Shown here one piece after another: positions 62,974 through 63,620 of a DNA stretch of 64,000 nt (position 1 is the first letter of the stretch; each line of letters starts with the position of its first letter). Under the pieces are notes generated by a model. It saw only the letters and a list, made by a program, of their open reading frames with translations, did no database searches and was not told the DNA's origin. The stretch lies in contig CANGGP010000004.1 of assembly GCA_947453445.1 (NCBI GenBank), positions 43,484 to 107,483 of the forward strand. Direction: 5' to 3'. The stretch is from Sphingobacteriaceae bacterium (GTDB lineage Bacteria > Bacteroidota > Bacteroidia > B-17B0 > Aurantibacillaceae). The translations under genes were made by a program, and so were the position numbers.

Positions 62974-63255
62974 TTTCTTTAAAATTGGCATCTTAGTAAT
63001 CTCTTAGCAATTGCGAGAGCATTGCTCGAAGCAATCTGCTTAGAGATTACTAATCCCGAGCTTGCCTCGGGAGACATACTTTACAAAATGATATAAAACA
63101 AAAAACCCCGTGTATTTCTACACAGGGTTCTTTTCTTTAAAATTGGCATCTTAGATAGCGCTTAGTTTTTGCAAGAGCTTGTCTCGCCGCAAAGACTTAG
63201 CGCTATCTAATCCCGAGCTTGCCTCGGGAGACATACTTTACAAAATGATATAAAA
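62974..63255 (-). repeat. Two tandem units downstream of 5S, each with a copy of the 5S 3' tail, a 60 bp palindrome and a TCCCGAG palindrome
   Basis: tttaaaattggcatc + TTAG[..]CTAA palindrome + tcccgagcttgcctcggga + gacatactttacaaaatgatataaaac repeated twice, separated by the same terminator. Confidence 0.85.
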
Positions 63256-63312
63256 CAAAAAACCCCGTGTATTTCTACACAGGGTTCTTTCCCGATAATT
63301 ATCGGGATTTAA

Positions 63313-63425
<113 letters not shown>

Positions 63426-63620
63426 AAGGGATCATTATTTCGGGTTGTTTATTTAATATTTCGGGTTCAGAACCCGGAATAAACAACTCGTAATAATTAA
63501 TAAATTAAATACAATATTGAAAAAAGACACAAGAGATTCGAGTTGAAAGTTTAGAAAGTTAATCGGTTTAGAAAGTTGAACTTTCTAACTTTTTGAACTT
63601 TTAAACTTTCAACTCTTTTT

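Follow-up and report, generated by a model that had tools for sequence, protein, structure and literature searches.

Behind the only 5S rRNA gene assembled in a 3.72-Mb draft genome of the Bacteroidia (G000; 153 contigs), two tandem units follow one another, each with an exact copy of the 5S tail and a composite palindrome, hp1 plus hp2, of a kind seen again behind the chaperonin gene groL. We see about even chances that this array, instead of being a free-living mobile element, came about by rrn-flank turnover, in which a composite palindrome peculiar to the lineage moved into pseudo-copies of the 5S tail. The window, meaning the whole stretch of 64,000 nucleotides that was analysed, corresponds to C4:43484-107483 of this genome, and coordinates given without a contig refer to it. 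The 5S 3' end reads ...GAGAGTATGTC-GATGCCAATTTTAAA on the minus strand; after the 5S come the tail, an 18-bp palindrome, the terminator T0, a T-rich spacer and the two units, which run on the minus strand from AGTATGTC through hp1, hp2 and the tail copy to a terminator. The features are as follows.

63313..63425, minus strand: 5S rRNA gene (Rfam RF00001, 82.9 bits); the helix I 3' strand GATGCC continues into the tail
63308..63322, minus strand: 5S tail GATGCCAATTTTAAA, intact proximal copy
63290..63307, minus strand: 18-bp palindrome TCCCGATAATTATCGGGA of the hp3 type in the interval between tail and terminator
63257..63290, minus strand: 5S terminator T0, AAAGAACCCTGTGTAGAAATACACGGGGTTTTTT
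63230..63237, minus strand: AGTATGTC, start of unit 1, sharing 8 nt with the 5S segment that immediately precedes GATGCC
63211..63229, minus strand: hairpin hp1 of unit 1, TCCCGAGGCAAGCTCGGGA, 19 nt
63151..63210, minus strand: long palindrome hp2a of unit 1, 60 nt, with 22-nt arms and an A.A mismatch in CTAAG/CTAAG (R1 model match, 93.4 bits)
63136..63150, minus strand: tail copy 2, exact GATGCCAATTTTAAA
63100..63133, minus strand: terminator of unit 1, identical to T0
63073..63080, minus strand: AGTATGTC, start of unit 2
63054..63072, minus strand: hp1 of unit 2
62993..63053, minus strand: long palindrome hp2b of unit 2, 61 nt
62978..62992, minus strand: tail copy 3, exact GATGCCAATTTTAAA
62944..62971, minus strand: distal terminator stem AACCCTCACTATTTATTTAGTGGGGGTT, unlike the two proximal terminators and below the threshold of a simple terminator scan

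An initial annotation of this region had described the recurrence of the 5S tail and a tandem of two units, and both are borne out, with exact GATGCCAATTTTAAA at 63150 and 62992 and AGTATGTC-hp1-hp2 before each; its layout of the unit holds as well, to which the proximal 18-bp palindrome, the divergence of hp2a and hp2b, the differing distal terminator and a further copy on contig C42 are added here. From base composition the tail 15-mer is expected about 2e-6 times in the window and 0.025 times in the whole genome, and the exact 15-nt copies cannot be chance. One extra exact match to the 15-mer at C12:37223 has nothing resembling 5S around it and could be accidental at the genome-wide expectation. 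The motif AGTATGTC starts at 63330 (within the 5S), 63237 and 63080 on the minus strand; its chance expectation is 0.006, its local-alignment score equals that of shuffles, and taken alone the match would be weak evidence of a 5S origin. Beyond AGTATGTC, the interior of the window units holds no detectable 5S likeness (score 16 against a shuffle mean of 16.2). The units are about 157 nt long and contain no credible open reading frame, and the predicted RNA folds of both lie 6-7 standard deviations lower than those of shuffled sequences. A closed 5S-like three-way junction, in which GTGTC and GATGC would pair around hp1 and hp2, appeared only in the predicted fold of G012, was absent from the window units and was dropped as a candidate structure. 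Elsewhere in the same operon, the 23S-5S spacer at 63540-63615 holds another long imperfect palindrome (GAGTTGAAAGTTTA...TAAACTTTCAACTC), the sequence of which differs in relatives such as L132, and an inverted repeat with 20-nt arms of 90% identity lies immediately upstream of the 5S (63434-63497).

Within the window, hp2a and hp2b are identical in 42/62 columns, with paired differences in the arms, while an 84-nt run spanning T0, the spacer, AGTATGTC and hp1 is 100% identical between the 5S-proximal (T0) segment and unit 1. This identity indicates that the last step in the window was a local duplication or a homogenisation. The same type of array is met on contig C42, which starts within it and holds T0, an hp2a unit, an hp2b unit and a decayed third unit, followed by a convergent methyltransferase gene, which we take from its sequence to be of the trmN6 type. 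Judging from a contig start inside the repeat, C42 is apparently a second rrn flank, and C42 itself contains no 5S. In comparison to C4, the C42 copy of hp2a carries 3 changes and that of hp2b 2 changes and a deletion, unpaired changes being present among them, and its unit 3 follows GTTGCCA. The order of hp2a and hp2b is the same on both flanks, but terminators have been shuffled, the CACTATTTATTTAGTG type standing after unit 1 in C42 and after unit 2 in C4. Shuffled terminators together with the 84-nt identity, in spite of only 42/62 identical columns between the palindromes, imply that duplication or homogenisation took place in the flanks, around a pair of unlike hp2 palindromes.

Aligning 11 units, 94% of the cells in the hp2 stem pair and 7/14 pairs are changed on both sides. 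The covariation score is 0.400; shuffles give 0.142, and slid partners no more than 0.082. The central A.A mismatch of CTAAG/CTAAG is kept in all aligned units but one (G038). This pairing pattern would fit selection on the stem or arm-to-arm correction of the palindrome, and the decay of the C42 copies argues against a strict constraint on hp2. TCGGGA-T(T/C)A precedes hp2 in nearly all units. According to the model and pattern searches from which all genome-wide hairpin counts derive, 18-bp TCCCGA..TCGGGA palindromes are dispersed in the genus, each genome giving 18-41 matches per strand, where a reversed control gives 0-5. To these short dispersed palindromes of the family, TCCCGATAGCTATCGGGA, belongs the hp3 of the 5S tail and of the unit tails, and hp1 shares their TCCCGA/TCGGGA ends, whereas hp2 is separate, longer and carries CTAAG/CTAAG. 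In the single-contig relative G001 (G001:C1:2150527-2151345), ten copies of TCCCGACGTTAGTCGGGA follow one another at a regular spacing of 89 bp.

The distribution of the composite was followed by covariance, DNA and pattern searches that took in about 90 family genomes, the covariance model R1, consisting of hp2 and GATGCCA, being run on 100 relatives and 89 family genomes. Across the roughly 90 family genomes, the hp1-hp2 unit is patchy and occurs in two genera. Clear R1 matches lie only behind 5S, namely in G000, G012, G040, G021, G038, G017 and G037 of genus g1 and in G047 and G104 of genus g8; the unit in G037:C21 probably stands behind a 5S as well, its contig, like C42, ending inside the repeat. 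Of the 5 R1 matches of G000, four are units and the fifth reads one of these on the reverse strand, and remnants are found in G018 and, degraded, in the single-contig G001. Relatives differ in the units they carry, so the uniform pair of units in all relatives that the initial annotation had named as speaking against insertion is not what is seen. On the groL tree, the basal forks of which are weak, presence of the unit is scattered, with 4 changes, no better than shuffled. The trmN6-linked rrn locus has zero units in G007, G026 and G038, one degenerate unit in MAG009 and three in G000, and in the MAG L132 it holds two copies of the 5S 3' half. A few hundred bp behind the 5S in L086 (G047:C6), a stretch resembling a tRNA 3' end (TTCGAATCCCTTTGCGTCCGCA) and a second tRNA-like sequence follow a truncated unit remnant, possibly as an integration scar.

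In G021, G003, G017 and G026, weaker R1 matches follow immediately on the groL stop codon, and the pattern search adds G019 to these genomes. Among the groL 3' regions inspected, the same architecture, a long CTTAG palindrome with a short palindrome, is seen in many congeners, as tandem arrays of 3-4 copies in G000, G009, G003 and G030 and of two full and one partial copy in G017, and none of these palindrome arrays contains 5S sequence. The hairpin pair is therefore not tied to the 5S tail. In the groL 3' region of G000 (L248 2959-3320), four near-identical composite palindromes of about 65 bp come right after the stop codon, and L247, L250, L255 and L244 have groL arrays of two to four composite palindromes, copy number and sequence of which vary by species. 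Within the 826 kb examined, a biased set chosen largely by similarity, the hp2-type pattern is restricted to 5S and groL loci, and many congeners lack the composite at 5S, at groL, or at both.

The initial annotation had proposed aligning rrn loci to find differences in unit number. Alignment of matching rrn flanks yielded three clean pairs of an empty and a filled state, each differing by one block at the 5S tail.

G053 (empty) and G047:C2 (filled): close species
G038:C34 (empty) and G038:C11 (filled): operons from a single genome that have about 130 bp of downstream flank in common
G040:C14 (empty) and G012:C165 (filled)

In all three pairs, the block that is present or absent consists of tail, new terminator, spacer and hairpins, the 5S with its tail is whole whether the site is empty or filled, and the filled state has a new, different terminator proximally and the old one distally. 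The distal terminator is near-identical to that of the empty allele in G047 and G038, and its stem has diverged in G012; the distal tails of G047 and G038 have the 18-bp palindrome in place of ATT. The same order of terminators is seen by inspection in G017:C10/C18, where automatic alignment did not recover it. A gain, or else a loss by recombination between tail copies, would be equally compatible with these pairs.

Partial copies of the 5S are also found in plain form, with their own terminators, behind the 5S of G011, G030 and G031, with local-alignment scores for 5S likeness of 44, 57 and 31, respectively, which were reached by 0/200 shuffles. Such plain copies mean that tail copies arise without hp1-hp2. 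The positions at which palindromes have settled in pseudo-5S copies vary: the copy in G011 has one of 18 bp in its interior, and at two contig ends of G003 hp2 is immediately followed by 34 nt from the 5S 3' end. A full-length tandem, with a complete second 5S, was looked for in the filled genomes and none was seen.

A full-length element with a nuclease or transposase, which the initial annotation had suggested looking for, did not turn up: neither a transposase nor a matching RAYT was found for the units, target duplications were not found either, and the short flanks that were read hold no linked integrase. Mobilisation of the RAYT/IS200 type was considered and rejected, as the 24 PF01797 (Y1_Tnp/RAYT) loci, located in 9/10 genomes searched, are flanked by unrelated hairpins or by none, hp1 and hp2 being absent within about 520 bp. 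Nor does the array belong to a known RNA family, only the 5S and 23S passing the Rfam gathering threshold. Tail copies are lacking behind the window's tRNAs, where one 17/20 match behind tRNA-Thr proved to be the neighbouring tRNA-Gly gene. A literature search, subscription journals lying largely outside its coverage, returned nothing relevant on 5S-tail elements or on palindromic repeats at groL in Bacteroidetes.

Under rrn-flank turnover, tandem pseudo-copies of the 5S 3' end and its terminator would arise via duplication and inter-operon rrn recombination, and the composite palindrome would have settled between GTC and GATGCC inside these pseudo-copies, as it may have done behind groL. With a second tail present, recombination between tails or slippage, together with conversion of rrn flanks, could add, remove and homogenise whole units, through all of which the 5S would be left with an intact tail and some terminator. 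Recombination would thus act as the mover in this order of events, and the units would presumably have no transposition function of their own. The 84-nt identity beside two hp2 palindromes identical in 42/62 columns is expected from flank duplication or conversion. Turnover is also favoured by the shuffled terminators of the two rrn flanks, the plain pseudo-copies in G011, G030 and G031, the palindromes set in 5S pseudo-copies in G003 and G011, the terminator order at the filled loci, and the groL composite with its lack of a 5S tail. Against turnover, the arrangement TGTC-hp1-hp2-GATGCC in two genera needs either old vertical descent with many losses or targeting, and filled genomes show no duplication intermediate, nor do unit interiors resemble the 5S beyond AGTATGTC. 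A structure kept and amplified for a role would be the BIME-like alternative, with palindromes at the 3' ends of the heavily transcribed rrn and groL genes that might bind a protein such as gyrase, protect RNA 3' ends or insulate; this is an unlikely reading, if one to be taken seriously. It draws on the confinement of the composite to sites behind 5S and groL in the pattern, model and examined-sequence searches, on tandem arrays at both, and on the hp2 stem with its 94% pairing, two-sided changes, covariation far above slid partners and retained A.A mismatch, but many congeners do without the composite at one or both sites, the C42 copies carry unpaired changes, and arm-to-arm correction can keep a palindrome paired as well.

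The reading of the initial annotation was successive insertion: a non-autonomous mini-element of about 160-300 bp, running from the GATGCC tail over terminator, spacer and TGTC to hp1 and hp2, would insert precisely at GTC/GATGCC of the 5S, restore the tail and donate a new terminator, repeats stacking up with the oldest farthest away. Its geometry stands, as the three empty/filled pairs have the 5S intact, the old terminator distally and a different new one proximally; the decayed tails are the distal ones (the palindrome for ATT in G047 and G038, unit 3 after GTTGCCA in C42), and a patchy distribution over the tree fits too. The transposition it presupposes has fared worse, with no linked transposase or integrase, RAYT-type genes next to other hairpins or none, the hairpin pair behind groL without a tail, plain pseudo-copies, window tRNAs free of tail copies, and an identity of unit 1 and T0 that makes the stacking look local, so that we hold the mini-element to be rather unlikely, though it too deserves to be taken seriously. 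Unlikely as well, in our estimate, is a tiny non-autonomous DNA element specialised for the 5S 3' end that would insert between GTC and GATGCC with a new tail and terminator each time while being moved in trans by a putative enzyme recognising hp1-hp2. Collapsed or chimeric rrn flanks in the draft assembly might be suspected from 153 contigs, a single assembled 5S and a contig, C42, that starts inside the array; however, genomes assembled independently in two genera have the unit, among them G047 with 6 contigs, and G001, a single contig, retains a degraded trace of it, by which an assembly artefact is largely refuted and has become very improbable.

Compared with known systems, REP/BIME sequences are closest in kind, being composite imperfect palindromes that are extragenic, form tandem arrays and have stems kept by paired changes, with a GT(A/G)G head as part of the REP definition (PMC2817692). 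The composites of the window and its relatives are likewise imperfect extragenic palindromes in tandem with paired stem changes at gene 3' ends, but they occupy two kinds of locus only, in contrast to more than 100 REP/BIME sites per genome, hp1/hp2 has no GT(A/G)G head, and no RAYT/Y1 gene is flanked by hp1/hp2 hairpins. As these three defining features, copy number, head motif and RAYT linkage, fail, we describe the composite as working like REP/BIME sequences and not as a member; at the 5S, the tail and terminator of the gene are also part of what is repeated.

Some integrative elements, among them tyrosine-recombinase islands and satellites at tRNA and tmRNA genes, rebuild the 3' end of the RNA gene they enter. 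Similarly, the inserted block here brings its own version of the 5S 3' end, the gene is intact with the old tail displaced, and empty sites exist in three pairs; unlike such elements, the units measure only about 157-300 bp, lack an integrase and target the 5S, they show clear tandem duplication and homogenisation, and their hairpins are also met at sites that have no tail. In rrn operons, 5S genes can be tandem or duplicate, and 5S pseudogenes occur too. The extra 5S sequence that follows the main 5S and has a terminator of its own, plain to see in G011, G030 and G031, is of this sort, whereas the window units keep only the last 5S nucleotides, the rest being replaced by palindromes.

It is usual to regard the 3' end of an rrn operon as fixed. 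In the genomes studied here, a block made up of 5S trailer and terminator is swapped among close species and even from one rrn operon to the other within a single genome, and away from the rrn flanks the composite involved turned up only at groL. Were the composite under selection, Bacteroidia would have in it a lineage-specific equivalent of BIMEs, gathered at genes of high expression; were it mobile, it would be a 5S-specific mini-element. On either reading, the pairs of empty and filled flanks make the mechanism testable.
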